Notes: generated by a model from the sequence alone, not told the origin. DNA of 64,000 nt from Solimonas soli DSM 21787 (GCF_000474945.1 NZ_KI440839.1:121857-185856), one strand, 5' to 3'; positions 41,476-61,901 are shown, counted from the stretch's first letter. Program-made: numbers and translations.

Positions 41476-41497
41476 GCGCTTCCGGCGCGTTTCGCGC

Positions 41498-42673: not shown

Positions 42674-42805
42674 TTTCAGTTTCTCCGCATCCGGTGTACC
42701 CGTTCCGTGGCCCGGCGCTGCGCGAGGCTGCGGGTCTGCTGCCGCCCTCGCGTCTTGACGCCCGGACCGATCAGCGGAACCCGCTAAGAAAATCGGGGTC
42801 GGCGA

Positions 42806-42821
42806 GTGACCGGTCAGTAAC
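42806..42821. promoter_or_regulatory. TetR operator copy 3
   Basis: GTGACCGGTCAGTAAC differs from copy 1 at a single base. It lies between lpxR-like and TetR 2. A TATAAA at 42829-42834 lies between copies 3 and 4 and could be a -10 box. Confidence 0.75.
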
Positions 42822-42834
42822 ATTATGGTATAAA

Positions 42835-42850
42835 GTTACCGATCGGTAAC
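42835..42850. promoter_or_regulatory. TetR operator copy 4
   Basis: GTTACCGATCGGTAAC is a perfect 16-bp palindrome, the strongest of the four operator copies. It lies 29 bp after copy 3 and 67 bp before TetR 2. Confidence 0.8.
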
Positions 42851-42916
42851 GCTCAAGTCAACGGGCACTGTCACCGGGCACTGTCAGGCCGGACACCACG
42901 GCAGGAGGTCACCGCC

Positions 42917-44320: not shown

Positions 44321-44782
44321 TCAACCGCACGCGGCGTCGCCGTCGCTCGCCTGCGGCGCGCGCTTCGACGCGCGGCGCGGCGCGCAGCGCGACGCCAGGC
44401 GCATGCCGATCGCCATGGCCAGCACGAAGACGATCGCGCCGAGACTGCCGCCGCTGGCGACCACCAGTACCGGTCCCGGGCAGAGCCCCGACAGTCCCCA
44501 GCCGATGCCGAACAAGGTCGCGCCGACCAGCAGCTGCGGCGTCAGCGGCGAGCGCGGCGGCAGCACGATCGGCTGCGCGCCGATCAGCGTGCGCGGATGG
44601 CGCCGTGCATACGCGAAGGCCGGCAAGGCGATCGCCAGTGCCGCCGCCATGACGAAGGCCAGCGACGGATCCCAGGCGCGGGTCACGTCGAGGAAGGCCA
44701 GCACCTTGTGCGGATCGGCCATGCCGGACACCAGCATGCCGGCACCGAACAGCAGGCCGGCGACCAGCGGTACGAGCCTCAT
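44321..44782 (-). CDS. YeeE/YedE (DUF6691) transporter, second half
   Basis: This 153-residue membrane protein has four hydrophobic segments and the conserved Cys motif GWGLSGLCPGPVLVVASGG. It matches the DUF6691/PmpB half of split YeeE/YedE sulfur transporters, which move thiosulfate or related sulfur compounds. Its basic C-terminal tail is short. It overlaps the preceding half by ATGA and probably forms a complex with it. Confidence 0.88.
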   Translation of the reverse strand: MRLVPLVAGLLFGAGMLVSGMADPHKVLAFLDVTRAWDPSLAFVMAAALAIALPAFAYARRHPRTLIGAQPIVLPPRSPLTPQLLVGATLFGIGWGLSGLCPGPVLVVASGGSLGAIVFVLAMAIGMRLASRCAPRRASKRAPQASDGDAACG

Positions 44783-45207
44783 GCCAGACCGCCGAAGCCG
44801 AGCGCGACGACCAGCGCGGCGACGCCCATGAAGATCAGCGTCGCCGTCAGGCTGCGCGGCGACAGGTTGGCGATACCGCAGATGCCGTGACCGCTGGTGC
44901 AGCCGGTGCCGATGTTCGTGCCAATGCCGACCAGCAGGCCGGCGAAAACCAGCTTCGGCCACACCGGATCGGCCAGAAAATCCGGCCGCGTCCAGAACCC
45001 GGCGAAACTCGCCAGCCAGGGCGCGGCGAGCAGGCCGACGATGAACCACAGCGCGACCGGCGTCGCCCGCCCGGTGACGAGCGAGCCGAACAGGCCGCTG
45101 ATGCCGGCGATGCGCCCGCTGCCGAGCAGCAGCACCGAGACCGCAGCGCCGATCAGCACGCCGCCGATCAGCGCGTGAATGACGGAATCCGTCGTCATTC
45201 CCATCAT
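44779..45207 (-). CDS. YeeE/YedE transporter, first half
   Basis: This 142-residue membrane protein has four hydrophobic segments and the Cys motif GTNIGTGCTSGHGICGIANL. It matches the PmpA half of split YeeE/YedE transporters. The start ATG 45207 has AAGGAG 9 nt upstream; ATG 45198 is also possible. The operon pmpA-pmpB-persulfide dioxygenase imports or releases sulfur species and oxidises persulfides. Confidence 0.88.
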   Translation of the reverse strand: MMGMTTDSVIHALIGGVLIGAAVSVLLLGSGRIAGISGLFGSLVTGRATPVALWFIVGLLAAPWLASFAGFWTRPDFLADPVWPKLVFAGLLVGIGTNIGTGCTSGHGICGIANLSPRSLTATLIFMGVAALVVALGFGGLA

Positions 45208-45268: not shown

Positions 45269-47677
45269 TCAGAAGTCCAGATTGAGCCGCACGCCCCAGG
45301 TGCGCGGCGGCGCCAGCGAGTCCTGCCGGCCGAAGTCGGTATGGAACTGCGCGAGGTTGTAGCGCTCGTCGCCGAGATTGTCGCCGAACAGCGTGATGCG
45401 CGCGCCGTAGCGGCGATACAGGTAGCTGATGCGCGCGTTGATGATGTCGTAGGCGTCCTCGAAGGTATCCGGCGTGTTCTGCGCGAGGTAGTAGTAGCCC
45501 GAATTGTAGTACCAGTCGCCGGCGATCTCGAACTGGCCGCCCGGCACCTCGAAGCTCTGGCTGATCGACGCCGAGCCGCTGAACTTCGGGGTGCGCACGA
45601 TGCGGTTGCCGGAGAAGTCGTGGCAGGTCGTGAGCGTCGGATCGTAATCACCTTGCGCGTCGCGGCAGTCGCTGCGGTACGCGATGCCGAGACTGCCGAA
45701 GCCGCGGCCATTCTCGTAGTCCAGATACTTGGCATTCAACCAGCTCGCATTGCCGCTGATCAGCAGGCCCGGATCGAAGGACGGCAGCGGCTGCCAGATC
45801 GTCTCCAGCTCGGCGCCGCGGATGCGCGCCTTGCCGGCGTTTTCCAGGTTGATCGCGCCGCCGGAGGTGAACGACATGAAGCCGGTCTGCAGATCCTTGA
45901 TGTCATTCTGGAACAGCGCGGCGTTGAGACGCAGGGTGCGGTCCAGCCATTCCGACTTCAGGCCGAGCTCGTAGGCCGTGACCTTCTCCGGCTCCACGTA
46001 CTCCGGCTGCACGAAGATGTTGATGATGTTGTACGTGCCGCTCTTGAAGCCCTGCTGGAAGGAGGCGTACAGCAGCAGATCCTTCAGCGGCCGGAAATCG
46101 AGCGAGACCTTCGGCGAGAAATTGCTCGCGCTGGTTTCCTCGGGCGAGAACGAATAGCCGAGCAGCGCGTCGTGCACGCCGACGTCGACGTCGGATTGCG
46201 CGAGGCGGCGCTGCTCGCGCTGCCAGCGGCCACCGAGCGTGATGTCGAACCAGTCGGTGACGCTCGCCGTGCTCTGCAGATAGGCCGAATACGATTCGGT
46301 CTCGAGCAGGCCGGTGAAGTAGAAGGTCAGCGACTGCGGCAGACCGAGCCTGCCGATCAGCTGGCCGAGCGGATTGCCGAGCGCGGGCGGCAGCGCCGAG
46401 ACGATGCTGTCGAGCGGCAGGCGCACGACATCGAGCAGGCGCAGATAGCCGGGATCATAGCCGCCCTCGCTCCTGAGGTAGTACAGGCCGCCGACCCACT
46501 TCAGCCAGCTCGAACCCCAGCTGTCCTCGTTCGAGGTGAACTGCAGCTCGCTGGTGTAGAAGCGCTGGTATTCGTCGTCGGCGCCGTAGGTGGCGATCGG
46601 CTGGCGCGTGTCGTCGAAGTCGTAGACGTAGTGGTAGGCGCGCACGAAGTACCAGCTGCCGAGCAGCTTGGTGTCGACGCCCGGGTGGTTCCAGTTGAGG
46701 ATCGCGTAGGCGGCGCGCGAGTCGGTCGTCAGCTTCGGCTCGGAATTGGCGGTGACGACGTACTCGCGCGTCTCCGCCGGCAACGTCGCGCCGAGCACCG
46801 CGGTCGGCTCGACGTTGGCCGAAGCGGTCGTGCTGGTGCCGCGCTGCTGGGCGACGAAGCCGGCGAGCTGCAGCGATACTTCGTCGCTGAAATCGATGCC
46901 GATCTTCAGGCGCGCGCCCTTGCCGATCTCCGGCGGCAGATGATCGCCGGTGCCGTTGTCGAGCTTGTAGACGTTGTCGGCGCGGTTGTAGTACGCCGAC
47001 AGGCTGGCGGCGAGCCCGGAAGCGACCGGCAGGTTGGTGTAGACGCGCGTGCGCGTGTCGTCGAAGCGTGGCGCATAGCTGGTCTGGATCGAGGTCTCGG
47101 CCTGCGCGCCCGGCGTCTTGCTCCAGATCGACACGGCGCCGCCGGTGGAGTTGCGGCCGAACAGCGTGCCCTGCGGGCCCTTCAGCACTTCGATGTGATC
47201 GATCGCGCCGAAGGACTGCGCGAGGCTGTGGCCGGAGGGGAAATACACGCCGTCGATGTAGGTCGCGACGCTCGGCTCGGACGACGGAATGAAGATGTCG
47301 GTGCCGATGCCGCGCAGATAGATCATGTTGTAGCCGCCGAGATCGGTGACGGTCAGGCCCGGCACCACCTGCTGCAGATCGCGCACATCGTCGAGGCCGC
47401 GCGCGTCGAGCTGATCGCCCGAGAACGCCGACACCGAGACCGGCACGTCCTGCACCGGCTCCTTGCGCTTGCGCGCGGTGACGATCACTTCTTCGAGCGC
47501 GCGCCTGTCGGCGGCCGGCGCGGGCGTCTCGAGCGGCGGCGGCGCCTCGGGCGGCAGGGCGATCGTTTCGAGTCCGCCGTCGGCCGGCGGCGGCGCGTCG
47601 CTCGGCGCCTCGCTCTGCGCCCAGGCGCTCGGCAAGACCAGCAGCAAGGAAGCGCCGAAGCGGCGCCAGCGATTCAT
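45269..47677 (-). CDS. TonB-dependent outer-membrane receptor
   Basis: This 802-residue receptor (from ATG 47677) begins with a signal peptide ending AWAQ. The TonB box and plug follow: EEVIVTARKRKEPVQDVPVS, VVPGLTVTDLGGYNMIYLRG and EVLKGPQGTLFGRNSTGGAV. A 22-strand barrel with NINARISYLYRRYGARITLF-type strands ends in Phe (GVRLNLDF). It resembles receptors for organic ligands of unknown type more than ferric siderophore receptors with clear ligands. It is the last gene of the MbnP/MbnH cluster, which suggests uptake of the cluster's metal or metal complex. Confidence 0.93.
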   Translation of the reverse strand: MNRWRRFGASLLLVLPSAWAQSEAPSDAPPPADGGLETIALPPEAPPPLETPAPAADRRALEEVIVTARKRKEPVQDVPVSVSAFSGDQLDARGLDDVRDLQQVVPGLTVTDLGGYNMIYLRGIGTDIFIPSSEPSVATYIDGVYFPSGHSLAQSFGAIDHIEVLKGPQGTLFGRNSTGGAVSIWSKTPGAQAETSIQTSYAPRFDDTRTRVYTNLPVASGLAASLSAYYNRADNVYKLDNGTGDHLPPEIGKGARLKIGIDFSDEVSLQLAGFVAQQRGTSTTASANVEPTAVLGATLPAETREYVVTANSEPKLTTDSRAAYAILNWNHPGVDTKLLGSWYFVRAYHYVYDFDDTRQPIATYGADDEYQRFYTSELQFTSNEDSWGSSWLKWVGGLYYLRSEGGYDPGYLRLLDVVRLPLDSIVSALPPALGNPLGQLIGRLGLPQSLTFYFTGLLETESYSAYLQSTASVTDWFDITLGGRWQREQRRLAQSDVDVGVHDALLGYSFSPEETSASNFSPKVSLDFRPLKDLLLYASFQQGFKSGTYNIINIFVQPEYVEPEKVTAYELGLKSEWLDRTLRLNAALFQNDIKDLQTGFMSFTSGGAINLENAGKARIRGAELETIWQPLPSFDPGLLISGNASWLNAKYLDYENGRGFGSLGIAYRSDCRDAQGDYDPTLTTCHDFSGNRIVRTPKFSGSASISQSFEVPGGQFEIAGDWYYNSGYYYLAQNTPDTFEDAYDIINARISYLYRRYGARITLFGDNLGDERYNLAQFHTDFGRQDSLAPPRTWGVRLNLDF

Positions 47678-47742
47678 GTCCCCAGGCATCGTCAAAACCC
47701 CGTCTTTATGTTTATGTCCCTGCGTACCGCCATCGGCGCCGC

Positions 47743-48837
47743 TCAGCGGTACTGATCGAGCAAGGCGGCGCCAGCGCAGGCGACGCGCGCGCCCGCCGGC
47801 GCGCCGCGCACGGCGATCGTCTCGCCCTGCGCGGCGACGACGCGTACCGCGCGTCGCGTGAAATGCTCCGGCGCGTCATGCACCCAGATCCAGGCCTCGT
47901 CGCCGGCGCCGCGCACGCTGCCGCGCGGCAGCAGCACGGTGTCGGCGCCGCCGGCGACGATCGGCGCGCGCAGGCCCAGGTCGACGAGCGCGCCGGGCGT
48001 CAGGGCCGGCGCCGCGCCGTCGAAATCGAACCAGAGCGTCCAGCCGGCTTCCGGCAAGGCCGGCGCCTGCGCCACCGCGTGCAGCGCGTAGCTCTGTCCG
48101 TCCACCGCCAGGCGCGCGGCGCCGGCACCGCGTGCCAGCGCCGCATCGTAGACACGCACGGCGAGGCGCGGTCGCGCGACCGCCAGCTCGAACAGCGTCT
48201 GGCCACGACCGACCACCTCGCCCGCCGCCACCGCGACGCGCTGCAGGCGGCCGGCGCCCGCCGCGCGAATCTCGACGCGGCCATCGAGGCTCTGCTCGCC
48301 AAGCTCGATCTGCCGACGCAGCGTCTCGTATTCGGCTTGCGCCTGCTCGCGATAGGTGTTGCCTTCGGCGCCGATGCCGCTCATGCGCTGCTGCAGGTCG
48401 AGGCGCTCGACGTTGACCTGCGCGATGCCGAGCTTCTGGCGCAGGCCGGCGATCTCGACCTGGCGCTGCGCACGCTCGCGCTCGCTGAGCGCCGGCCGCA
48501 GCAGCGCCAGCAACTGCCCGGCGGCGACGTTCTGCCCGGCCACGGGCCAGGCCTCGGCCGCGGCCTGCAGGCGGCCGGCTTCCGGCGCCTGCAGGCGCCA
48601 GCCGGCCTCGGGGCGCGGCAGCACCTCGGCGACCGCCTGCAGCGGCGCGCCCTCGTCGAGCGGCGTGGCGCGCACCGTCGTGATCGCCAGCGCGCGCTGC
48701 AGCGGCTTGGCGAGGCTCAAGGCCGCGGGCCGCGATGCGGAAGGCGCCGGCGCGTCGTCGCCGTGCGCGGCGGCGGCCAGGGGCAGCAACCACAGGCTGG
48801 CGCGCAGCAGGCGCGCGACCGCCGCGGCGCGGCTCAT
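47743..48837 (-). CDS. Periplasmic adaptor protein 1 (HlyD-like)
   Basis: This 364-residue secreted protein begins with a signal peptide ending AAAHG. It has two lipoyl-like halves (GWRLQAPEAGRLQAAAEAWP, then VEIRAAGAGRLQRVAVAAGE) flanking a coiled coil of about 70 residues, then a beta-barrel. That is the efflux adaptor fold. It has no lipobox. It follows a second adaptor gene by ATGA overlap, so the pump at 54512 would have two different adaptors and no outer-membrane channel gene nearby. Confidence 0.82.
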   Translation of the reverse strand: MSRAAAVARLLRASLWLLPLAAAAHGDDAPAPSASRPAALSLAKPLQRALAITTVRATPLDEGAPLQAVAEVLPRPEAGWRLQAPEAGRLQAAAEAWPVAGQNVAAGQLLALLRPALSERERAQRQVEIAGLRQKLGIAQVNVERLDLQQRMSGIGAEGNTYREQAQAEYETLRRQIELGEQSLDGRVEIRAAGAGRLQRVAVAAGEVVGRGQTLFELAVARPRLAVRVYDAALARGAGAARLAVDGQSYALHAVAQAPALPEAGWTLWFDFDGAAPALTPGALVDLGLRAPIVAGGADTVLLPRGSVRGAGDEAWIWVHDAPEHFTRRAVRVVAAQGETIAVRGAPAGARVACAGAALLDQYR

Positions 48838-49853
48838 GGCGGCACCTGCCGCAGCAGCGCGCCGGCGTCGACGACCACGCGATCGCCGGGCCGCAAGCCG
48901 TCCGTCACTTCGAGCTGCTGCTCGTCGAAAGCGGCCGTGCGCACGGCGCGCGCCTCGAAGTCCTCGCTGCCCTGATGCACCCAGACCCGGGTGCGACCGT
49001 CGCGCTCGAACGTGCTGCGCCGCGGAATGCGCAGCACCGGGCGCGCCAACGGCACGCGGAGCTCGACGGTCTCGCCCGGCGCCCAGGCGAGCGCCGCGTC
49101 GGCGGCGTACACCGCGCGCGCCGCGCGCAGCGTCGTGTCGTAGCTGTCGCCGATCAGGCGCAAGGGCGTCGCGCCGCTGCACGCCGCGTCGAGCCGCAGC
49201 GGCGCGTCGGCCTCGTGCAGCAGCTCGACGACGATGGCCTCGGCGGCGGCGCCCTCGAACAGCGCGTCGCCCGGCGCCGCCAGCTGTCCGCGCTGCGCGA
49301 GGCTGGCGAGCAGCACGCCGGCCGCCGGCGCGCGCAGCGCCACGCGGTCCTGCAAGGCGCGATCGAGCGCCGCGCCGCGCAGCTGCGCGGCGTGATAGTC
49401 GGCGACGATCTGGATCGACGGCGTCGGCAGGCTGATGTCGATGTCCTTCTCGGCGTCGATGTCGAAACGGCGAATCTGCACCTGCGCGAGATCGAAGTCG
49501 CGCTGCTCGGCGCGCCGCGCCGACTGCAGATCGCGCCGCTCCGGCGCGCTCATCGCCGGACGCAGCCAGGCCAGCACCTGTCCGGCGGCGACACGCTGGC
49601 CGGCCAGCGGAAAGCCGCCGGCCGGCGGCTCGAGCACGCCGGGCTGATCGCTCATCGCGCGCCAGCGCCGTCGCGGATCGACCAGCACGCGCGCCGGCAG
49701 CGTGCGCGCCGCCACCTGCTCGGGCAGCGTGGTGACGATGGCGAGCTGCCGCTGCTGCGGCTTGCCGAGCTGCACGCGCAATGGCGCCTCCGCCGCCGCG
49801 CGCGCGGCGAGCGGCAACAGGGCACAGAGCGCGAGGAGAAGCGCGACGCGCAT
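48834..49853 (-). CDS. Periplasmic adaptor protein 2 (HlyD/CusB-like)
   Basis: This 339-residue secreted protein begins with a signal peptide ending ARAA. A biotinyl-lipoyl region follows (GGFPLAGQRVAAGQVLAWLR), then a short helical hairpin and a beta-barrel. A C-terminal domain ends VTDGLRPGDRVVVDAGALL, as in RND adaptors. It overlaps adaptor 1 and is followed upstream by the ankyrin lipoprotein. CusB-like Met-rich sites are not apparent. Confidence 0.82.
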   Translation of the reverse strand: MRVALLLALCALLPLAARAAAEAPLRVQLGKPQQRQLAIVTTLPEQVAARTLPARVLVDPRRRWRAMSDQPGVLEPPAGGFPLAGQRVAAGQVLAWLRPAMSAPERRDLQSARRAEQRDFDLAQVQIRRFDIDAEKDIDISLPTPSIQIVADYHAAQLRGAALDRALQDRVALRAPAAGVLLASLAQRGQLAAPGDALFEGAAAEAIVVELLHEADAPLRLDAACSGATPLRLIGDSYDTTLRAARAVYAADAALAWAPGETVELRVPLARPVLRIPRRSTFERDGRTRVWVHQGSEDFEARAVRTAAFDEQQLEVTDGLRPGDRVVVDAGALLRQVPP

Positions 49854-49860
49854 CGCCGCT

Positions 49861-50469
49861 TCAGGGCACCGCGGCCGGCCTGGCTTCGAGCAGGGCGACG
49901 ATGTTCTTCAGGCCGCGCACCTGTGCGACGCGCAAGGGCGTGTAGCCGTTCTTCGAGGCGATCGACGGATCGGCGCCCCTGGCGAGCAACAGCTGCACCT
50001 GCGGCTCGTGGCCGGCGGCGCTGGCCAGATACAGGGCCGTCAGGCCGCGGTCGTTCTGCGCGTTGATGTTGGCGCCGCGCGCCAGCAGCAGCTCGATGAT
50101 CTGCGTGTCGCTGCCGAAGTAGGCGGCGTGGATCAGCGGCGACCAGCCGGCGTGATCGGCCAGATTGACGTCGGCGCCGGCGTCGAGCAACCGCGCGACG
50201 CAGGCGACCTGGTTCTGCGCGATGGCGGCGAGCAGCGGCGTCTGGTCGAGCGTGTCGAAGCCGTCGATCGACGCCCCGGCCTTCACCTCGGACGCGATCT
50301 GCTCGCACTTGCCGTGGCGGATGTCGTTGACGAACAGTGCAAAGCGTTCCGCCGTGTACGGCTCCGGCGACGCGGCGTGCGGGGCGACAGGCGCCTGCGC
50401 GCAGGCGGCGAGCAGCGCGGCGACGAACGCGGGCGCGGCGGCACGGACGATCGAAGGGGCGGCGCTCAT
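49861..50469 (-). CDS. Ankyrin-repeat lipoprotein
   Basis: This 202-residue protein has the lipobox ALLAAC with Cys23 and about four ankyrin repeats in residues 65-195 (for example TPLLAAIAQNQVACVARLLD then AGADVNLADHAGWSPLIHAA). It probably displays a protein-binding surface in the periplasm. It overlaps the parvulin stop by ATGA, so it belongs to the cluster. Its partner could be the secreted 943-residue protein or the adaptors; that is an inference. Confidence 0.85.
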   Translation of the reverse strand: MSAAPSIVRAAAPAFVAALLAACAQAPVAPHAASPEPYTAERFALFVNDIRHGKCEQIASEVKAGASIDGFDTLDQTPLLAAIAQNQVACVARLLDAGADVNLADHAGWSPLIHAAYFGSDTQIIELLLARGANINAQNDRGLTALYLASAAGHEPQVQLLLARGADPSIASKNGYTPLRVAQVRGLKNIVALLEARPAAVP

Positions 50470-51371
50470 TGGCCGCTCCGCGCGGTGGCGCTGCCGGCGG
50501 CGCCGGGGCCGGTGACCTTGGCGTTCTTGCTCAGCTGCGCGGTCAGTTCCTCGATCTTCAGCTGCGCGGTGCGCTGGCGCAGCGCCTCGCGTGCGCTGTC
50601 GTCGAGCGCGTCGTAGGGCTGCGGCTTGGCGACCGGGCGCGGTCCTTCCTCGAGCTTGATGACGTGCCAGCCGTAGCGGCTGCGCACCGGCGTCTTGCTG
50701 TACTCGCCCTTCTTCAGGCTTTCGACCGCGTCGCTGAAATGATGGTCGACGAAGATGTCCGGCCGGAACCAGCCGAGATCGCCGCCGTTCTCCTGGCCGC
50801 CGGGATCCAGCGTGTAGCGCTTGGCGACGGCGGCGAAATCCTCGCCCTTGTCGAGGGCGGCGAGCGCCGCCTGCGCGTCGGCGAGCTTGCCGGTGAGAAT
50901 GTGGCGCACGTGGTACTCGCGGATCTTGCCGTTGGCGCGGTTCCATTCGTACGCGGCGCGCAGCGTGTCGTCATTGATCGGCTGCGCGGTGAAATAGTCC
51001 TCGAGATAGGCGCGCGACAGGATCAGGCGCTGCTGGTAGGCCAGCTGGTCGGCGATCTCGGGCTTCCTGTCGAGGCCCTTCTTGCGCGCCGCCTGCGCCA
51101 GCACTTCCTCGGTGATCAGCTCGGCGCGCGCGGCATTGCGCGACTCCTCGCTGCCGGCCTGGCGCGGATCCTTCTGCTGCTGACCGATGCCGGCCGCCAT
51201 CAGGCTGACGTGGTTGACGCTGATCGGCTGGCCGTTGACGTAGAGGTCGGCGGCGAGACCGCCGTTGTCGCCGGCGGCGCCCGGGGTCTTGTCCCGCGCC
51301 TTGTCGGCCGCGGCCGCGACGCCGGTCGCGAGCACGGCGGCGAAGGCCAGGGGTTTTGCATATCGGAACAC
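50466..51371 (-). CDS. Periplasmic parvulin-type peptidyl-prolyl isomerase
   Basis: This 301-residue PpiC/SurA-like protein folds other secreted proteins. From GTG 51371 it has a signal peptide ending VAAAA. An N-terminal helical chaperone region is followed by a parvulin domain (about 145-245: EYHVRHILTGKLADAQAALA, then NGGDLGWFRPD and RYGWHVIKLEEG). GTG 51371 has AGAGGAA 5 nt upstream; the frame is also open to ATG 51401. It is encoded directly after the 943-residue secreted protein, whose folding it may assist. Confidence 0.9.
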   Translation of the reverse strand: MFRYAKPLAFAAVLATGVAAAADKARDKTPGAAGDNGGLAADLYVNGQPISVNHVSLMAAGIGQQQKDPRQAGSEESRNAARAELITEEVLAQAARKKGLDRKPEIADQLAYQQRLILSRAYLEDYFTAQPINDDTLRAAYEWNRANGKIREYHVRHILTGKLADAQAALAALDKGEDFAAVAKRYTLDPGGQENGGDLGWFRPDIFVDHHFSDAVESLKKGEYSKTPVRSRYGWHVIKLEEGPRPVAKPQPYDALDDSAREALRQRTAQLKIEELTAQLSKNAKVTGPGAAGSATARSGQ

Positions 51372-51420
51372 GTAAATTCCTCTTCTCTGCGTGCTGCTCA
51401 TTAATGCGTGAAAGCCGCAG

Positions 51421-51448
51421 CGCTCCTGCCGTACCGCTGGCAGGAGCG
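51421..51448 (-). other. Hairpin between the 943-residue gene and the parvulin gene
   Basis: CGCTCCTGCC and GGCAGGAGCG pair perfectly around an 8-nt loop. There is no T-run. It could be a partial terminator or an RNA-stability element that sets the relative level of the two products. Confidence 0.45.
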
Positions 51449-51473
51449 CCGGGCTGCAAGGGACCGCGTGCTC

Positions 51474-54305
51474 TTACAGATCGCCGTCCGGATTGACCGG
51501 CGCGGCCGGGAAGTAGCCCGGACCGAACAGGTTGGCGCCGTCACGCTCGAAGATCGCCGCGTGCGGCTTGGCGCCACCCTTGGCGCCACGCGCGCCGGGC
51601 CACAGCCATGCATCGCGCGCCGCCGAGTCGAAGTCCAGGCACGGCGTGCCGAGCAGCTCGTCGGTGAACGAGGTGTCGAGCACCGTGGCGCCGGTGTTGC
51701 GATCGACCTTGCCGAGGCAGACCGTGCGGTCGCCGTCCGACCCGGTGCCCGGCAGCGGCACGTGATTCAGCTCGACGAAGTACTGGATGAACAGGAAGCG
51801 TTCGCTGCCCGTCACCGGCGGCTTGCCGATCACCTGGTCGCGCGGCGTCTTCGACGCGCTCGGCGTGAGGTCCTTGTAGCCACCCTCGCCCGACGGCGTC
51901 GCCTGATAGCCGACGCGATCGAAGTTGGTGAAGTGCGGACCGCCGTGCGTGTAGAGGTTCTGCAGCGAGTTGAGATTGCCGCTGCCCGGACCGCCGCCCG
52001 TCGTGCCCGAAGGTTCGCCACCCGCGTGCGCGTCGGTCACCAGGATGCCCTGCGGCGTCAGCGCGCGGACTTCGGTCACCGCTTCGGCGAGACGGATGTA
52101 GCCGACGCCGGTCTGGCTGACGTTCGACGACGCCGTGGTCGCCAGGCCGACGCCGGTCGGGCCGGTCTCGAACTGGCCGATCGCGCCACGGATGCGCGGG
52201 CAGTCGTCCGCCTCGTTGTTGTGCTTGAGCACGTTGAACGCGGCGCTGACGCCGCCCGACAGATCGGCGCGCCTGGCCTTGATGCCGAGCGAGGTGTTGG
52301 CGGTGCGGCTCGGATCGGCCTCCGGGAAATCGCAGGCGATCGCCGTCGCGACGGTGCCGGCAGTGCCCTTGGCGAACAGCGGACGAACGTCGAGCGTCAG
52401 GATGCGGCGGCTGTGCTCGCGCGGATAGTCGCGATCGAAGTCGATGCTGCCGGCGGCGTCGATCGACTTCGGACTTTCGATGCCCGAGATCGGCAGGATC
52501 AGGAAGCGATCATCGTCGGTCAGCTGGAAGTAGCCGACGCCCGTGCACGGACCGGCGTCGTAGACGGCACGCCAGTAGGGGCCCTTGCCGCCGAACACAT
52601 TGGTCTCGTCGCCGCTGATCGTGAGATCCGGGCTGTAGTACAGCACGCCGCCGCACATGCTCGCCGCGAAGGCGCCCTTGTGCGGCACGTAGTCGGCGCT
52701 GCCTTCGCTGCAGCTGTCGGCCGTCTTCGTGCTGGCCGCGTTGGCGGCGACGCCGCTGGCGCTGACCGCCTTGTCGAAACTCGGATCGCCGCTGTTGATC
52801 CAGCCTTTCTGTCCGACGCAGTGATGCGACTGGTGCGGCGTGCCGAAGCCCATCAGACCCTCGTTCTCCTCGTGGATGAGGATCGGCTCCTGACGCGGAC
52901 CGTCCGGCACGGCGCTGACCGAGCGCAGGTACGGATTGCCCTGGTAGACGCCGGCTTCCTTGAGCGAGTCCTTGGTCTTGCCGTGCGTGTAGCTGCCGCT
53001 GGTCTCCCAGACGCGCACCGACGAACCGAAGCTCGACCCGCAGATGCCGAGCGGGCCGATGCCGGTGCCGGTGCCGCCATTGGCCTGGCTGCCGCACAGC
53101 TCGCCGAGCGCGCCGTTGATGGCGGCCGCGCCGATCGACGCGGCGACCGCGTAGTCGGACGTCGCCAGGTACTTGCCGTCATAGGTCAAGGCCATGCCGT
53201 GCGGCACGGATTCGAGGCCGGCGTCCTTGTTGCCGAGGAAGAACAGGCCCTGGTTGGCGGTGCGGGTCTGCCGCGTGTCCGGCGAGCTGGTGTACGCGGT
53301 CGGGTTGCGCGGCTGGTCCGCGCGCACCGCGCCGACGTACTCGGTGATGCCCTTGTGGCCGAGCAGCGGATTGTCGTCGGCACCGACGCCGAGATTGGCG
53401 ATCAGGCCGAACTGCGCGAGATTCTCCAGCGCGCCGGTCACCGACGGCACCGACGGCAGGCAGGCGCCGAGCGCGGTCGGCGCGACGCGGTCCGGATCGA
53501 TTTCCGTCACCGTGCCGCCCGGGCCGTACACGTAGTTGCTCATGTACGTGTAGAGGATCTTGTGGCCGCCGGTGTTCGACGGCATGACGACGAAATCGTC
53601 GGTCAGCGACGAACGCCGCGGCTGCGTGCCGCACACCGCGATGTCGGCCCTGCCGACGCCGCGCACGCTGGTGATGTCGTAACGGAACACGTTCTTCGAG
53701 ATCACGCCGCCGGCGAAGGTGTACTTGTGGCCGGCCTTGAGGCCGTCGCTGCCGTCGGAGATGTACGAGGTGTACGACAGCATGTGATGCGGATCGTTGT
53801 GCGCGTCCGAGGCCAGCGCACCGGCGATGTTGCCGGCCACGTTCGAGGCCAGCACGCTCGGCAGCTCGGCGGTCCAGATCACGTTGCCGTAGGTCGTCGA
53901 GTTCGGTTCGGCGTCGACCACGGCGAGGAAATCCTGCGCGGTCTTCGGATTGCACAGCGGCGTCGAGCAGCCGTCGCCGGTCCAGATCAGCAGCACCGTG
54001 CCGTTCGGAATCTGCGCGCCGGTGTACTTGTTGATCGCCGGCGGCGCGCTGCCGCCGGTCGCCGCCGCCGCGGCGTCGCGCGTGCTCAGCACGTTGGTGA
54101 CGGACTGCGCGGTGTTCTGCACGATGCCGGTGGTGGTGTTGACGACGTTGCCGAGCAGGCCTTCGGTGACCAGCGGCACGCCGGCGGTCGCCGCCGGGGC
54201 CGACAGCAGCGACGCCGCCGCCAGACCCGCCGACGCCGCGGCGAGCGCCAGCGGACGCAGGCGCGCCCCGCAGCCGGGCGGACGCAATAATCCAAACAGA
54301 CTCAT
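51474..54305 (-). CDS. Large secreted protein, possibly SBP56/methanethiol-oxidase-like
   Basis: This 943-residue protein begins with a signal peptide ending PAATA near residue 41. A low-complexity helix with Asn/Thr/Val (residues 46-75) follows. Four or more repeat-like beta blocks follow, including QDFLAVVDAEPNSTTYGNVI, DPHHMLSYTSY (His173-His174), HGMALTYDGKYLATSDY and FLFIQYFVELNHVPLPG. Their order recalls SBP56 copper-dependent methanethiol oxidases, including the His-His pair, but overall identity cannot be judged by eye. It may be a copper enzyme or beta-propeller protein. AAGGAG lies before the ATG. It is encoded between the RND pump and the parvulin. Confidence 0.75.
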   Translation of the reverse strand: MSLFGLLRPPGCGARLRPLALAAASAGLAAASLLSAPAATAGVPLVTEGLLGNVVNTTTGIVQNTAQSVTNVLSTRDAAAAATGGSAPPAINKYTGAQIPNGTVLLIWTGDGCSTPLCNPKTAQDFLAVVDAEPNSTTYGNVIWTAELPSVLASNVAGNIAGALASDAHNDPHHMLSYTSYISDGSDGLKAGHKYTFAGGVISKNVFRYDITSVRGVGRADIAVCGTQPRRSSLTDDFVVMPSNTGGHKILYTYMSNYVYGPGGTVTEIDPDRVAPTALGACLPSVPSVTGALENLAQFGLIANLGVGADDNPLLGHKGITEYVGAVRADQPRNPTAYTSSPDTRQTRTANQGLFFLGNKDAGLESVPHGMALTYDGKYLATSDYAVAASIGAAAINGALGELCGSQANGGTGTGIGPLGICGSSFGSSVRVWETSGSYTHGKTKDSLKEAGVYQGNPYLRSVSAVPDGPRQEPILIHEENEGLMGFGTPHQSHHCVGQKGWINSGDPSFDKAVSASGVAANAASTKTADSCSEGSADYVPHKGAFAASMCGGVLYYSPDLTISGDETNVFGGKGPYWRAVYDAGPCTGVGYFQLTDDDRFLILPISGIESPKSIDAAGSIDFDRDYPREHSRRILTLDVRPLFAKGTAGTVATAIACDFPEADPSRTANTSLGIKARRADLSGGVSAAFNVLKHNNEADDCPRIRGAIGQFETGPTGVGLATTASSNVSQTGVGYIRLAEAVTEVRALTPQGILVTDAHAGGEPSGTTGGGPGSGNLNSLQNLYTHGGPHFTNFDRVGYQATPSGEGGYKDLTPSASKTPRDQVIGKPPVTGSERFLFIQYFVELNHVPLPGTGSDGDRTVCLGKVDRNTGATVLDTSFTDELLGTPCLDFDSAARDAWLWPGARGAKGGAKPHAAIFERDGANLFGPGYFPAAPVNPDGDL

Positions 54306-54511
54306 CTTTCACTCCTTGACTAAGCGATCGTTGGCTTAACCGATGCGGGTGGGTCCGCACCGCCTCGTCTCGAGGCCCGCCGGGTTATCTTTTTTCGCTT
54401 CCCCGTCCCGGCAGTGCGCGCAACGATACACTCGCAAAGCCATGTTGGTTCCCAGGCAATTAGAACTTTTCAGGAGTTTTTCGAAGAGTTCTTTCATAAG
54501 AACCGGCGTTT

Positions 54512-57500
54512 CTAAAATTCGTAGGAAATCTCCGAACGCGCTGTCAGCATTGCGGGCAGCCAACGGTCGAGCAGCAGCGGCGTCACGAAGCTGTCGAGCA
54601 GCGTGCCGCCGATCAGGCCGCCGAAGATCACCAGCGCGACCGGATGCAGGATCTCCTTGCCGGGCGCGTCCGCCGCCCACAGCAGCGGCGCCAGCGCCAG
54701 CGCCGCGACCAGCGCCGTCATCAGCACCGGCAGCAGACGCTCGCTGCAGGCGCGCAGCACCAGCGCGCGATGTGCAGGCAGCGGCGCCTGCGCGGAGAGG
54801 CGCAGGCAGTGGCCCAGCTTGAGCAGCGTGTTGCGCGCGGCGATGCCGAACAGCGTGATGAAGCCGATCGCGCTCGCCGCGCTCAGCGGCGTCGCCGTCA
54901 GCCAGAGCGCGGCGATGCCGCCGATCGCCGACAGCGGCACGATGCCCATGACGATCGCCGTGGCGCGGCGATCGCGGAAGCGCGCATGGACCACGGCGCT
55001 CATCAGCAGCAGCGACAGCGCACCGAGTCCCAGCAGGCGCCACAGTGCGGCGCGCTGCTCGGCGCCCTCGCCCTCGATGCGCGCCTCGTAGCCGGCCGGC
55101 AACTGCAGCGTGGCGACCGCGTCGCGCACGGCGTCGGCGGCGGCGTCGAGCGTGCCGGCGGCGAACACGGCGACGACCAGGCGCCGGCGCAATGCCTCGC
55201 GCTCGATGCGGCTCTCGCCCTCGCGCAGGCCGACGTCGGCGATCGCCGCCAGCGGCACGGTGCCGTTCGGCGATTCGATCAGCAGCGACGGCAGCGCCTT
55301 GCTCGTGCGTTGCGCTTCCGGCAGGCGCAGCACCAGATCGAAGCGCCGCTCGCCGTCGATCACCGCTCCGAGCGTCTCGCCGCCGGCGAGGATGCCGATC
55401 TGCTCCTGCACGCGCGGCGGCGACAGGCCCCACAACGCCGCGCGCCGCGTATCGACGCGCGCCTGCCATTGCCGCACCCGCTGCTGCGCGTCGGGCGTCG
55501 CGCCGGCGATGCGCGGGTCGTCGCGCAGCCGCGCCGCCAGCGTTTCGCCCAGCTGCCGCAGGGTGTCGAGGTCGTCGCCGACCAGCTTCACCGCGAGCGG
55601 CGCCTGCACGCCGGACAGCACATGATCGAGGCGATGCGCGATCGGCGCGCCGATCGACCAGCTGCCCGGCAGGCCGGCGAGCGCCGCCGCCACGCGCGGC
55701 CGCACTTCCGCCGCGCGGGCGCCGTCGGCCAGCGTCACTTCGAACTCCGAGTAATGCACGCCCTCGGCGTGTTCGTCGGCTTCGGCGCGACCGCTGCGGT
55801 GCGCCGCGCGCCGCACGCCCGGCACGGCGAGCAGGCGCCGCTCGGCGGCAAGCGCGACGCGCTGCGATCCGGACAGCGCGACGCCGGGCCGCAGCAGCAG
55901 GTTGACGGTCAGCGTGCGCTCGGCGAACGGCGGCAGCAGTTCGCGCGGCAGGCGCGTGGCGCCGAGCACGGCGAGCGCGACGAGCAGGGCCGTCGCGCCG
56001 AGCAGCCAGTGCGGTCGGCGCAGCGCCTGCGCCAGCCCGCGCTCGTAGCGGGCGCGCAGCACCTGCACGAAGGCGCGCTCGCGCGGCGCCGCGGCGCCGC
56101 GCAGGCCGAGCGCGCACAGCACCGGGGTCACGGTCAGCGCGACGAGCAGGCTGGCGGCGATCGCCGCCACATAGGCGGAGGCCAGCGGCGTGAACAGGCG
56201 GCCGGCGAGGCCGCCGAGCGCCAGCACCGGCGCGATGCCGAGCACGACGATGAGCGTCGCCACCAGGATGCCGGCGCGCACCTCGCTGACCGCCGCGACG
56301 ATCACCGTGGCGGCGCTCGAGCCGGCGTCACGCTCGCGCAGGCGGCGCACGATGTTGTCGACACCGACCACGGCGTCGTCGACGAGCTCGCCGATGGCGA
56401 TCGCCAGCCCGCCGAGCGTCATCGTGTCGATGCTCAGACCACAGGCCTGCAGGATCAGGATCGCCGCGACCAGCGACAGGGGAATCGCCACCACCGCCGC
56501 GGCGGTCGCGCGCGCGCTGCCGAGGAACAGCAGCAGCACCGCGGCGGCGATCAGCGCGCCGTGCAGCAGCGCGTCGCGCACGTTGCCGACCGAGGCGCGG
56601 ATGAAGTCGGCCTGACGGAACACCGGCTCGATCACGGCGTCGCCCGGCATGCCGCCGCGCAGTTCGCGCAGGCGCGCCTCGATCGCCGCGCCGAGGCGCA
56701 GGCTGTCGACACCCGGCTGCTTCTGCACGGAGAGGATCACGGCCGGCTCGCCGTCGACGCCGGCGTCGCCGCGCTTCAGGCGCTGCCCTTCGCCGACCTC
56801 GGCGACCTGGCCGAGACGGATCGCCGCATCGCCGCGCCAGGCGACGGCGAGATCGCGCAGCGCGTCGAGCTGCAACGGCCGGCCGATCGTGCGCAGCAGG
56901 CGTTCGTCGCCATCTTCCTCGACGATGCCGCCGCCGGCGTTGCCGCCGTAGCCACGCAGCGCCTGTTCGATCTGCGCCAGCGTCACGCCGGCGAGGCGCA
57001 GGCGCTGCAGATCCGGACGCACTTCGTACTGGCGCAAGGCGCCGCCGATGGGCAGCACCTGCGCGACGCCGGGCAGCGCCAGCAGCGCCGGCCGCGCCGA
57101 CCAGTCGGCCCATTCGCGCAGCGCGGCCGGCGTCACGCTGCCCTGCGGCGAGCGCAGGCCGAGCAGCATCACCTCGCCCATCAGCGAGGTGATGGGCCCG
57201 AGCCGCGCCTGCAAGCCGGGTGGCAGGCTGGCACGCGCGGCATCGATGCGCTCGGCGACGAGCTGGCGCTGGCGCAGCAGATCGCTGCCCCAGGCGAATT
57301 CGATCTGCAGCAGCGCAAGGCCGGCGGTGGAGGTCGAGCGCAGGCGCTGCAGGCCCGGCAGCCCGGCCAGCGCCGCTTCGAGCGGATAGCTGACCAGCGC
57401 CTCGACGTCCTCGGCGGCGAGCTGCGGCGCCTCGACCTGCACCGTCACCGTCGGCCGCGTCAGGTCGGGCAGCACGTCGACCGGCATTTGCGGCAGACGC

Positions 57501-57586
57501 AGCAGGCCGTACACCAGCAGCGCCAGCGCGGCGGCGAGCACCACGAAGCGCTCGCGCAGGCTCCAGGCGACGATGTGCGCGATCAT
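54512..57586 (-). CDS. Heavy-metal-type RND efflux permease (CusA/CzcA-like)
   Basis: This 1024-residue membrane pump has the HME-RND layout: TM1, two porter halves, and 12 membrane segments. TM4 carries the proton-relay acidic residues in GELVDDAVVGVDN. The second half has FITLFGIAARNTLLKLGHCL, which is the HME signature in place of the HAE1 form. This points to metal-ion export, most often Cu/Ag or Zn/Co/Cd, but the selectivity cannot be read off. Its start overlaps the preceding His-rich gene by ATGA. Confidence 0.9.
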   Translation of the reverse strand: MIAHIVAWSLRERFVVLAAALALLVYGLLRLPQMPVDVLPDLTRPTVTVQVEAPQLAAEDVEALVSYPLEAALAGLPGLQRLRSTSTAGLALLQIEFAWGSDLLRQRQLVAERIDAARASLPPGLQARLGPITSLMGEVMLLGLRSPQGSVTPAALREWADWSARPALLALPGVAQVLPIGGALRQYEVRPDLQRLRLAGVTLAQIEQALRGYGGNAGGGIVEEDGDERLLRTIGRPLQLDALRDLAVAWRGDAAIRLGQVAEVGEGQRLKRGDAGVDGEPAVILSVQKQPGVDSLRLGAAIEARLRELRGGMPGDAVIEPVFRQADFIRASVGNVRDALLHGALIAAAVLLLFLGSARATAAAVVAIPLSLVAAILILQACGLSIDTMTLGGLAIAIGELVDDAVVGVDNIVRRLRERDAGSSAATVIVAAVSEVRAGILVATLIVVLGIAPVLALGGLAGRLFTPLASAYVAAIAASLLVALTVTPVLCALGLRGAAAPRERAFVQVLRARYERGLAQALRRPHWLLGATALLVALAVLGATRLPRELLPPFAERTLTVNLLLRPGVALSGSQRVALAAERRLLAVPGVRRAAHRSGRAEADEHAEGVHYSEFEVTLADGARAAEVRPRVAAALAGLPGSWSIGAPIAHRLDHVLSGVQAPLAVKLVGDDLDTLRQLGETLAARLRDDPRIAGATPDAQQRVRQWQARVDTRRAALWGLSPPRVQEQIGILAGGETLGAVIDGERRFDLVLRLPEAQRTSKALPSLLIESPNGTVPLAAIADVGLREGESRIEREALRRRLVVAVFAAGTLDAAADAVRDAVATLQLPAGYEARIEGEGAEQRAALWRLLGLGALSLLLMSAVVHARFRDRRATAIVMGIVPLSAIGGIAALWLTATPLSAASAIGFITLFGIAARNTLLKLGHCLRLSAQAPLPAHRALVLRACSERLLPVLMTALVAALALAPLLWAADAPGKEILHPVALVIFGGLIGGTLLDSFVTPLLLDRWLPAMLTARSEISYEF

Positions 57587-58137
57587 CGCGCGCGCCGCGT
57601 GCGGCGGCGCCACAGCACCAGCGCGCCGCCGAACAGCACGGCCGCGCCGAGCGCGGCCGGCAGCCTGCGGCGCCACGGCCCATGCTCCTGCGCCGCGCGC
57701 GGCGGCGGCCGCGGCAGGCGGCCGGCGAAGCGCTCGTCCCAGCCCTCGCCGCGCACGCTCAGCGCGAGCACGACATCGCCCGGCGCGCCGCCGAGCAGGT
57801 CGGCCGGCACGCGATAGGTGCCCGGTTCGCTCTCCTGCGCCTGCACGGTCGCCGCGCCGACCTGTGCCGCCACGGCGAGGCCGGACAGCGGACGGTTGCT
57901 CGCGTAATCGTCGATCCACACGACCAGGCCCTGCCCGTCGAGCGCGGCGACCGCCTCGAGGCGCGCCGACTGCCAGCTCAGGCTCGTCGCCGGCGCCGCG
58001 GCCGGCGCGATCTCGTGCGCGACGTGTTCATGGCCCTCGTGCGCGGCGGCGACGCCGTCGGCGCCGAGCGCGGCGAGCAGCAGCGCCAGACACGCGGCGC
58101 GCTCAGCGCGACGCGGCTTCCGAGAATCGGCGGTCAT
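57583..58137 (-). CDS. His-rich periplasmic protein with C-terminal membrane anchor
   Basis: This 184-residue protein (from ATG 58137) has a signal peptide, then the metal-binding-looking stretch HEGHEHVAHE just after it. A beta-rich domain follows (VVWIDDYASNRPLSGLAVAA, then GTYRVPADLLGG), and a hydrophobic C-terminal segment ends in RRRTRRAR. It resembles the N-terminal domains or accessory proteins of heavy-metal RND systems, and could deliver a metal to the pump encoded next. The family is not recognised for certain. Confidence 0.7.
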   Translation of the reverse strand: MTADSRKPRRAERAACLALLLAALGADGVAAAHEGHEHVAHEIAPAAAPATSLSWQSARLEAVAALDGQGLVVWIDDYASNRPLSGLAVAAQVGAATVQAQESEPGTYRVPADLLGGAPGDVVLALSVRGEGWDERFAGRLPRPPPRAAQEHGPWRRRLPAALGAAVLFGGALVLWRRRTRRAR

Positions 58138-59149
58138 GGACGAAACGCTCGTCAGTGAGAGTCTGGAGAAAGGCGATGATGTCTTCGGCCTCGGCGGCAC
58201 CGACGCTCGTCGCTTCGCGCAGCAGCGGCTCGTCGCGCAGCGCGTCCGGCACGCCGCTGCGGTAGTGCGCGAGCACTTGTTCGAGCGTGTCGAAGCGGCC
58301 GTCGTGCATGTACGGCGCGGTCAGCGCGACGTTGCGCAGGCTCGGCACGCGGAAGCGGCCACGGTCCGCCGCGTTGCCGCTGATCGCCGCGCGGCCCGCG
58401 TCGTCGCCCCGCAAGCCGTTGCGCCGATAGCGGTAATCGGTGAACAGGGGTTCGACGTGGCACGCGCTGCAGTGCGTGCGGAAGGCGGCGAGCCCGCGCG
58501 TCTCGGCGTCGCTGAAGGTCGCGCGGCCGGCGCGATAGCGGTCGTAGCGCGAGTCGTCGGAGATCATCGTCACGAGGAACTGCGTCAGCGCGCGCAGGAA
58601 GCGCTGGCTGTCGATCGGCCCCTCGTCACCGCCGGGTCCGAAGGCCCGCGCGAACAGCCGCGGGTAGTCGGGATCGGCGCGCAGCCGCGCGAGCACGGCC
58701 GGCAGCGTCTCGCCCATCTCGACCGGGTTGGTCAGCGGAGCCAGCGGCTGCAGTTCGAGATGGGCGACGGCGCCGTCCCACATGAAGTCCGGCTGCCAGG
58801 CCAGGTTGAACAGGCCCGGCGCGTTGCGCGTGCCGTTGGCGCCGTGCAGGCCATGGCTGACGCGATGATCGAAATGCGCGAAGGCGGCGAACTGCTGATG
58901 GCAGCTCGCGCAGGCGATGCTGCCGTCCTGCGACAGCCGCGGGTCGTAGAACAGCTTGCGGCCAAGCGCGAAGCCCGCCGCCGTCGGCGGGTTGCGCTGG
59001 ATGTCGTAGACCGGCGCCGGCCAGCCCGCCGGGCGGTGCAGCTGCGGCGTGCGCGACGGCCACCAGCAGGCCGCGCCGGCCGCGCCGCCGGCGACGAGCA
59101 GCAGCGCGAACGCGGCGAACAGCCGGCGGCGTGGCGGGCGACGCGGCAT
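58103..59149 (-). CDS. mbnH: MbnH/MauG-like di-heme c-type cytochrome
   Basis: This 348-residue periplasmic protein has a signal peptide (residues 1-28) and two heme-binding CxxCH motifs: CASCH at 80-84 and CSACH at 227-231. It also has the peroxidase-family segments ALGRKLFYDPRLSQDGSIAC, GTRNAPGLFNLAWQPDFMWD and FRVPSLRNVALTAPYMHDGR. MbnH proteins oxidise a Trp of MbnP to kynurenine. It is encoded directly after mbnP (10-nt gap) and overlaps the His-rich gene. Its place beside MbnP is the main support for the name. Confidence 0.88.
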   Translation of the reverse strand: MPRRPPRRRLFAAFALLLVAGGAAGAACWWPSRTPQLHRPAGWPAPVYDIQRNPPTAAGFALGRKLFYDPRLSQDGSIACASCHQQFAAFAHFDHRVSHGLHGANGTRNAPGLFNLAWQPDFMWDGAVAHLELQPLAPLTNPVEMGETLPAVLARLRADPDYPRLFARAFGPGGDEGPIDSQRFLRALTQFLVTMISDDSRYDRYRAGRATFSDAETRGLAAFRTHCSACHVEPLFTDYRYRRNGLRGDDAGRAAISGNAADRGRFRVPSLRNVALTAPYMHDGRFDTLEQVLAHYRSGVPDALRDEPLLREATSVGAAEAEDIIAFLQTLTDERFVHDRRFSEAASR

Positions 59150-59158
59150 GGGCGGACT

Positions 59159-59947
59159 TCAGCGGCGCGGCTCGTGGTGCACGTGGTCGACGCGGAAGGC
59201 TGTCGCGTAGCGGTCGGCGATCGCCGCGCCGCCGGCCGGATCCATCAGCGCCTCGTGCCCGGCGACGCGCAGGGGCTCGCCGGCGAGCAGCGCGGCGGCG
59301 ACATCGGCGTGCAGGTGCACCGTGCTGACGATGTCCGGCGCCAGGCGCAGCGGCCTGGGCAGCGGCAGATAGACGGTGCGCGCGTTGGGGCTGCCGCCGA
59401 CGTGCCAGCTCACGCGCTGCCCGGGTGTCGTCGCCTGCGGCGAGCGGCCTTCGAGCTTCAGGAAGATGTAGCCGCTGTTCCAGGTCCAGAACATGCCGAG
59501 CGCCGGATCGAGCGCGCCGGTCTGCGCGCCGGCGCTGTTGCGCGCGGCGTCGACACCGATCAGAAACTCGACGCCCTCGTACTCGCCCGGCGCGAAGCCG
59601 GCGACCTCGAAGCTGCGCGAGGCCGGCTGCGCCTCGTCGACGAGAACGTAGCCGCGCGCGTCGCTGTCGCTGCGCGCCGCCGCCGACCAGCTGCGGTCAT
59701 GGCGGCGCAGGCGGAAGTTGCTGAGGTAGTAGCGCAGGCGATCGATGCGCAGGGCGTCGCCGTCGTCCAGCGTGTATTCGGTCTCGCCAAGCTGCAGCGG
59801 CTGCGTGCCGACCCGATGGCTGATTTCGACGCGCAGGGGCAGGCCGCTCGCGTCGCCGCCGTGGCAGGCGGCCAGCAGCAGCGACGCGGCGCCGGTCGCG
59901 GCGATCGCCACGGCGCGAACGCGCCGTCGCCTGAGGGCGGCAGTCAT
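59159..59947 (-). CDS. mbnP: MbnP-like copper-binding lipoprotein
   Basis: MbnP proteins bind copper through a site that includes a kynurenine made by MbnH. The 262-residue product has a lipobox LLAAC with Cys28 and the family segments RIDRLRYYLSNFRLRR, YVLVDEAQPASRSF, then GEYEGVEFLIGVDAARNSAG, and AQTGALDPALGMFWTWNSGY with Trp154 and Trp156. The C terminus is His-rich (FRVDHVHHEPRR). The methanobactin operon itself is not visible, so this is the non-methanobactin type of mbnPH pair. It heads the cluster of transport and secreted proteins downstream. Confidence 0.9.
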   Translation of the reverse strand: MTAALRRRRVRAVAIAATGAASLLLAACHGGDASGLPLRVEISHRVGTQPLQLGETEYTLDDGDALRIDRLRYYLSNFRLRRHDRSWSAAARSDSDARGYVLVDEAQPASRSFEVAGFAPGEYEGVEFLIGVDAARNSAGAQTGALDPALGMFWTWNSGYIFLKLEGRSPQATTPGQRVSWHVGGSPNARTVYLPLPRPLRLAPDIVSTVHLHADVAAALLAGEPLRVAGHEALMDPAGGAAIADRYATAFRVDHVHHEPRR

Positions 59948-60245: not shown

Positions 60246-60827
<582 letters not shown>

Positions 60828-60840
60828 GGCCCGCCCGTCC

Positions 60841-61881
60841 ATGAGCAACATCACGCCCCAGGAAGCGCTGCAGCGCACGATCGAGCACCGCGAGATCTTC
60901 CACGACGAGATGATCGGCCTGATGCGGCAGATCATGCGCGGCGAGGTTTCGCCGGTGATGACCGCGGCGATCCTCACCGGCCTGCGCGTCAAGAAGGAAA
61001 CGGTCGGCGAGATCGCCGCCGCCGCGCAGGTCATGCGCGAGCTGTCGAACAAGGTCGAGACGCCGGCCTACGAGCACTTCGTCGACATCGTCGGCACCGG
61101 CGGCGACGGCGCGCACAGCTTCAACATCTCGACCGCCGCGATGTTCGTCGCCGCCGCCGCCGGCTGCCGCATCGCCAAGCACGGCAACCGCAGCGTGTCG
61201 AGCAAGTCCGGCAGCGCCGACGTGCTCGAAGCCTTCGGCGCCGTCATCGATCTGGCGCCGGCGCAGGTCGCGCAGAGCATCGCCGACTGCGGCGTCGGTT
61301 TCATGTTCGCGCCGAACCATCATCCGGCGATGAAGGCCGTCGCGGCGGTGCGCAAGGAAATGGGCGTGCGCACCATGTTCAACATCCTCGGCCCGCTGAC
61401 CAATCCGGCCGGCGCGCCGAACATCCTGATGGGCGTCTTCCATCCGGACCTCGTCGGCATCCAGGTGCGCGTGCTGCAGCGCCTCGGCGCGCAGAACGCG
61501 CTGGTGGTCTGGGGCAAGGACAACATGGACGAGATCACGCTCGGCGCCGGCACGCTGGTCGGCGAGCTGCGCGACGGCGTGGTGCGCGAATACGAAATCC
61601 ATCCGGAAGACTTCGGCATCGCCATGGCCGGCAGCCAGAACCTGCGCGTCGCCGATGCCGGGGAATCGAAGGCCCGCGTGCTCGAGGCGCTCGGCAACAA
61701 GCCCGGCGTCGCGCGCGACATCGTCGCGCTCAACGCCGGCGCGGCGATCTACGCGGCGCGGCGCGTCGGCTCGATCGCCGACGGCATCGCGCTGGCGCGG
61801 CACGCGCTCGCCGACGGTTCGGCGCGCGCCTGCCTCGATCAGTTCGTCGCCACCACGCGGCGCCTCAAGAACGCCGCCTGA
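60841..61881 (+). CDS. trpD: Anthranilate phosphoribosyltransferase
   Basis: TrpD joins anthranilate to PRPP. The 346-residue product has the glycine-rich [19 protein letters not shown], the PRPP loop [20 protein letters not shown], and [34 protein letters not shown] and [14 protein letters not shown]. Length and motifs are standard. It is in tight order between trpG and trpC. Confidence 0.97.
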
Positions 61882-61901
61882 CCGCCACTCGACCGCTGCT
61901 C

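Follow-up and report, generated by a model that had tools for sequence, protein, structure and literature searches.

MbnH converts a tryptophan of its partner protein, MbnP, to kynurenine, and MbnP thereby becomes able to bind copper. Pairs of this kind (GenProp0940) are found with or without methanobactin genes and occur far beyond methanobactin producers (PMC3621798). A comparable arrangement is described for MopE/SACCP and CorA/CorB of methanotrophs, in which a kynurenine-containing copper protein is accompanied by a di-heme peroxidase-type partner and the kynurenine chemistry of CorA is established (PMC3912023). Copper is also required by the periplasmic methanethiol oxidase MtoX, a member of the SBP56 family (PMC5739008), in which the copper histidines are residues 89, 90, 140 and 412 (PMC5739008, PMC10362175). 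Some MtoX enzymes yield sulfane sulfur (PMC10936201), and SCO1/senC and mauG come after mtoX in Hyphomicrobium as well as in many others (PMC5739008).

We have analysed a locus in Solimonas soli DSM 21787 that shares elements with both of these systems, within a stretch of 64,000 nucleotides referred to here as the window. Ten genes, all on the minus strand, lie between positions 45269 and 59947, and gene calls together with Pfam and NCBIfam searches bear out the ten genes and the order given to them in an initial annotation made from the sequence. The features of the locus, including accessory genes further downstream, are as follows.

59159-59947, minus strand: mbnP, encoding a lipoprotein-like MbnP-family copper-binding protein (PF20243, 160 bits, cut-off 27), W154xW156 invariant
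58103-59149, minus strand: mbnH, encoding a MauG-like di-heme enzyme with two CxxCH motifs (PF03150, CCP_MauG, 185 bits)
57583-58137, minus strand: His-rich anchor, secreted, with an N-terminal AHEGHEH and a C-terminal membrane helix; no family
54512-57586, minus strand: HME-type RND permease, a CusA/ZneA relative (PF00873, ACR_tran, 696 bits)
51474-54305, minus strand: gene for a secreted giant protein of 943 residues, judged by profile comparison a distant homologue of SBP56 (MtoX/SELENBP1)
51420-51449, minus strand: terminator-like hairpin with a perfect stem of 11 bp, directly 3' of the giant gene
50466-51401, minus strand: parvulin-type peptidyl-prolyl isomerase with a signal peptide (PF13616, 68 bits; PF00639, Rotamase, 64 bits)
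49861-50469, minus strand: ankyrin-repeat lipoprotein (PF12796, 87 bits) with the lipobox LLAAC in its sequence
48834-49853, minus strand: RND periplasmic adaptor A (TIGR00999, 62 bits, below cut-off)
47743-48837, minus strand: RND periplasmic adaptor B (TIGR00999, 40 bits, below cut-off; HlyD_3, 23.7 bits)
45269-47689, minus strand: TonB-dependent receptor, accessory (barrel PF00593, 124 bits; plug PF07715, 63 bits)
44321-45189, minus strand: two half-size YeeE/YedE-type sulfur-transport genes, accessory (PF20398, 130 bits; PF04143, 36 and 26 bits, the latter just below the cut-off of 27)
43588-44301, minus strand: MBL-fold hydrolase, accessory (PF00753, 52 bits; Blh NF040641, 93 bits, cut-off 625)

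Neither the anchor nor the 943-residue protein matches a Pfam or NCBIfam family above cut-off, and both adaptors resemble RND adaptors weakly in these searches. Like the mtoX-SCO1/senC-mauG operon, the cassette combines an SBP56-type protein with a MauG-like di-heme gene and a copper-binding partner; it differs in having MbnP in place of SCO1, in adding an RND pump, two adaptors, a parvulin and an ankyrin lipoprotein, and in being confined to one family of bacteria. No SCO1/SenC gene lies near the cassette, the genome's own SCO1 being on contigs C1 and C6 only. Upstream and divergent from mbnP, genes resembling trpG, trpD and trpC (60246-62699) are ordinary, and the region downstream of the cassette (31727-43564) holds a separate multidrug-type RND set of OEP channel, permease and adaptor, TetR-type regulators and an LpxR-like outer-membrane protein. 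No RNA family was detected within the window.

The cassette is tightly conserved and was found within one family. Among 146 genomes searched, 27, including that of the window, encode the 943-residue protein at 65-85% identity, and all of them belong to the Solimonas/Nevskia/Hydrocarboniphaga family. Comparison of 20 neighbourhoods from relatives indicated that the order mbnP, mbnH, (anchor), RND permease, giant gene, parvulin, ankyrin, adaptor A, adaptor B is kept in 20/20, as far as the contigs reach. All eight non-anchor genes are present in 17 of these loci, the anchor gene being absent from four of the 17, which are Nevskia-type; the parvulin, the ankyrin lipoprotein and both adaptors are kept in every complete locus, and mbnH is found wherever the contig extends that far. 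The giant protein is the most conserved product, with a median identity to the window of 69.6% compared with 36-62% for the other eight. In the 58 genomes of the family, the giant gene and MbnP occur together in 27, MbnP occurs by itself in five, the giant gene by itself in none and neither in 26 (Fisher p ~8e-12, a statistic that ignores relatedness). The initial annotation had named absence of co-occurrence elsewhere as a ground for refutation; MbnP accompanies the giant gene in 27/27 family genomes that have it, a strong result in favour of a conserved system of the kind proposed, in which a large secreted protein is joined by an MbnP/MbnH pair, a metal-type RND pump, a parvulin and adaptors.

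Outside this family the set was not encountered. None of 11 other gammaproteobacterial MbnP/MbnH loci carries it, although at one of them an RND permease and an adaptor, apparently unrelated, lie several kb off; MbnP occurs there without the giant protein, which in the family genomes is never found without MbnP. A scan of ~85,000 genomes with two conserved peptides returned 24 loci, which, where named to genus level, belong to Solimonas, Hydrocarboniphaga, Nevskia, Panacagrimonas and Stenotrophobium, a few bearing doubtful metagenome names. The giant-protein profile (alignment A1) matched only the window's own genome among 398 genomes of the phylum, and a plasmid search did not find the cassette. 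The initial annotation knew of no described system with this exact set, and none was found in the literature searched.

Several variations were observed at individual loci. In Solimonas aquatica (L004/L023, G010:C9) the giant gene contains one in-frame TAG, either a broken gene or a sequence error, while the remaining cassette looks intact. Several small secreted or outer-membrane proteins, conserved among the genomes concerned, adjoin the cassette in the Solimonas fluminis group (L038, 14977-18285; L040, 1336-4690), a secreted GloVer tandem-repeat protein adjoins adaptor B at two loci (L032, 3289-4506; L033, near 3419-4615; 71% identical), and several loci (L023, 3545-4924, and relatives) encode an FAD/NAD(P)-binding protein (PF13454) close to the cassette, with ~35-41% identity across lineages.

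The organisation of the genes indicates that the giant gene has a position of its own. ATGA-type overlaps of 4 bp are present at three junctions, anchor/RND permease, parvulin/ankyrin and adaptor A/adaptor B, but none adjoins the giant gene, so that the "many" overlaps of the initial annotation were a generous count. The giant gene is instead preceded by a gap of 206 bp and followed by one of 72 bp, and the block need therefore not be one transcript. Perfect stems of 10-19 bp directly follow the giant gene in 18/21 loci, differing in sequence between lineages and sometimes accompanied by a T run; stems that long are rare after other cassette genes, most of whose ends have none, and a gap of 200-370 bp precedes the giant gene in most loci. 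The hairpin after the gene and the gap before it suggest that it is expressed separately and strongly rather than from the middle of one even operon.

The relationship of the giant protein to SBP56 emerges at the level of profiles. A phmmer search of the PDB with the single sequence gave no match, whereas a profile search gave one, the SBP56 structure 2ece (E 0.09). Pfam SBP56 (PF05694) is matched weakly by 18/18 orthologues (best E 3.3e-4) and is the sole family matched by all of them, no other being consistent; the window protein scores 13.3 bits, below the curated cut-off of 34. Alignment of the giant-protein orthologues with 19 SBP56 proteins by hhalign gave a probability of 96.7% (E 3.9e-10); shuffling or reversing the SBP56 columns, or substituting nine other cassette alignments, gave control values of 0.1-0.8%, and comparison of the profile with its own reverse gave 11%. 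Combined, these results indicate, at the profile level, that the 943-residue protein is a distant and greatly enlarged SBP56 homologue that falls outside the Pfam family in its curated sense. The confident part of the profile alignment is limited to the first blade (residues 87-211, ~85 columns); the joint alignment, which beyond this blade is a MAFFT alignment with large insertions in the giant protein, reaches the C-terminal end and also places the C-terminal His and GGP motifs.

Like MtoX, the giant protein has an HH motif and a C-terminal histidine, although it is very divergent and about twice as long as SBP56 proteins. In our mapping, H173/H174 align with MtoX His89/His90 (SELENBP1 H73/H74) and H915 with His412, and all three residues are invariant across the giant orthologues and SBP56; MtoX His140 has no clear partner in the alignment, H248 and D236 being candidates. 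A tryptophan pair, W900-x-W902, is likewise invariant among the orthologues. The giant protein does not keep the tryptophans conserved in SBP56 (W265 and W402 of alignment A5), and a TTQ cofactor at these positions was therefore rejected. AlphaFold models were unusable, with a mean pLDDT of 28.7 for 18 orthologues and 37.3 with SBP56 rows added; a fold search with the latter placed 2ece first by a wide margin (E 1.6e-3), a result that is partly circular as SBP56 rows were in the input, and weak matches to propellers of the nitrous-oxide-reductase and thiocyanate-dehydrogenase type were also returned for this low-confidence model.

MbnP and MbnH of the cassette are divergent members of their families. 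MbnP scores 41 bits against TIGR04052 (cut-off 140) and matches 7l6g in the PDB (E 4.7e-9); MbnH scores 232 bits against TIGR04039 (cut-off 363), with the di-heme enzyme 6e1c as its best PDB match (E 5.5e-47). Thus, the pair resembles other MbnP/MbnH pairs in its PF20243 domain, its MauG-like partner and its WxW motif but falls below the cut-offs of the equivalogs and is not accompanied by an MbnB-type gene. W154 and W156 are invariant in 20 MbnP sequences, two outgroups among them (alignment A2), and both CxxCH motifs of MbnH are kept (alignment A3), the former invariance making kynurenine formation plausible at the predicted site W154/W156. The predicted kynurenine and the di-heme partner are shared with MopE/SACCP and CorA/CorB, which are, however, reported as surface copper-binding proteins of methanotrophs, with no RND pump, parvulin or SBP56-type protein described in the accessible portion of the source (PMC3912023). 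A methanobactin locus was rejected, as the methanobactin MbnB-type gene (PF05114) has no match in the genome. The anchor has at most weak matches outside the cassette; its residues D76, D77, N81 and P83 are invariant (alignment A4).

Full-length alignment with CusA (E 9.5e-106) and ZneA, its nearest relatives among solved structures, characterises the RND permease, which scores 605 bits against TIGR00914 (cut-off 701) and retains the CusA-like acidic residues D and D/E of TM4. These features are shared with CusCBA/CzcCBA, from which the cassette differs in having two divergent adaptors and no outer-membrane channel. The periplasmic methionine triad of CusA is not present in the permease, other residues occupying those positions, one of them the conserved H655 (in RLDH). 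The TonB receptor, which the initial annotation had counted in the set, was rejected as a core part, as an ortholog accompanies the cassette at only 2/20 other loci (64-68% identity) and a distant one at a third (37%), unrelated receptors or none being present at the remaining loci.

Genes of sulfur metabolism recur next to the cassette. An MBL-fold hydrolase similar to the Blh sulfur dioxygenase domain follows the cassette and receptor, on their strand, both in the window and at two loci of Hydrocarboniphaga, with 75-77% identity beside the cassette in L041 and L022; the window and one Hydrocarboniphaga also have sulfur-transport genes between receptor and hydrolase (same position in L041/L021). 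In the Solimonas fluminis group the gene immediately upstream of mbnP, in the same orientation, encodes CysB; CysB and a receptor adjoin the cassette in three Nevskia-type loci, and cysK lies near it in Solimonas aquatica. The cassette CysB exceeds the NCBI CysB cut-off of 436 (518 and 496 bits for two tested directly), and all seven genomes with such a copy encode a further CysB elsewhere. In the CysB tree, the cassette copies fall in two separate places, indicating that CysB was recruited at least twice; two rows in the wrong frame (G041, G045) were disregarded, and the two cassette clades are independent of them. These neighbours vary by lineage and were spotted post hoc, yet they agree across lineages, and they suggest that the cassette may work on organosulfur compounds rather than on copper uptake itself.

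We consider that the cassette may encode a giant periplasmic copper enzyme acting on an organosulfur compound together with its own maturation genes, a reading to which we give a probability of about one half and in which the activity, the substrate and the copper are putative. The giant protein would be exported unfolded and fold with the aid of the parvulin. MbnH would convert a tryptophan of MbnP to kynurenine, allowing MbnP to bind copper and presumably pass it to the giant protein, much in the way proposed for SCO1 and MauG with MtoX; MbnH would take the role of MauG and MbnP that of the copper chaperone. The pump, two adaptors and His-rich anchor may expel copper in excess or some other toxic ligand. 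Once mature, the enzyme would oxidatively cleave its substrate, and the Blh-like hydrolase, sulfur transporters or CysK encoded nearby would oxidise, import or assimilate the sulfur set free, a process placed under a dedicated CysB in two lineages. MtoX would be its counterpart in organosulfur metabolism, a link drawn here through the neighbouring genes. It was initially proposed that the large protein is loaded with copper, and the distant homology to the copper enzyme SBP56/MtoX makes this more plausible, the metal itself being presumed. An extension that we regard as quite improbable is that MbnH also modifies the giant enzyme, for example at W900-x-W902, a short distance along the chain from H915, the putative C-terminal copper ligand; a cofactor of kynurenine or quinone type would then define a new class of copper oxidase, and the cassette would be a dedicated assembly line for obtaining organosulfur sulfur.

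Uptake of copper or a copper complex, which the initial annotation saw as the purpose of the system, is the weaker reading. In a system for copper acquisition and homeostasis, the receptor would import copper or its complex, MbnP and MbnH would store it, the giant protein would be a copper store or a copper-loaded enzyme and the pump would remove excess. MbnP/MbnH are indeed tied to copper in methanobactin producers and in MopE/CorA-type proteins (PMC3621798, PMC3912023), and the similarity of the pump to CusA and ZneA points in the same direction. We nevertheless consider this unlikely, as conservation does not extend to the receptor, an MbnB-type gene is lacking from the genome, the pump does not have the CusA methionine triad, the neighbours are sulfur genes and the giant protein is the most conserved part. 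The centre of the system is the giant SBP56-like protein, probably a copper enzyme of organosulfur metabolism.

The alternatives to such an enzyme concern the giant protein itself. It could be an SBP56 homologue without catalysis, a thiol- or selenium-binding sensor or carrier from which the pump exports a bound sulfur or metal compound, as the known copper site is clearly kept only in part and the protein, which carries large insertions, has about double the size of SBP56. Invariance of the HH pair and the C-terminal histidine across orthologues and SBP56, and the constant presence of a MauG-like enzyme as in MtoX operons, make this unlikely. Less probable again, and in our view doubtful, is that only the first blade is SBP56-like and the remainder a different copper propeller (nitrous-oxide-reductase/thiocyanate-dehydrogenase type) or an unrelated fold. 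This would be consistent with the restriction of the confident alignment to residues 87-211 and with the weak propeller matches of the low-confidence model, but the C-terminal His and GGP motifs likewise find a place in the joint alignment, and 2ece leads the fold matches widely, if in part circularly.

A copper enzyme of organosulfur metabolism remains the reading that we prefer. In this family, one MbnP/MbnH pair is invariably linked to a specific client, which is highly conserved and looks like a copper enzyme, so that the purpose of MbnP/MbnH copper can be tested directly in cultured strains, Hydrocarboniphaga effusa and Solimonas fluminis among them. If true, this reading would add to the methanethiol oxidase family giant members that have a pump and a folding factor of their own, and would connect copper proteins based on kynurenine with the metabolism of sulfur.
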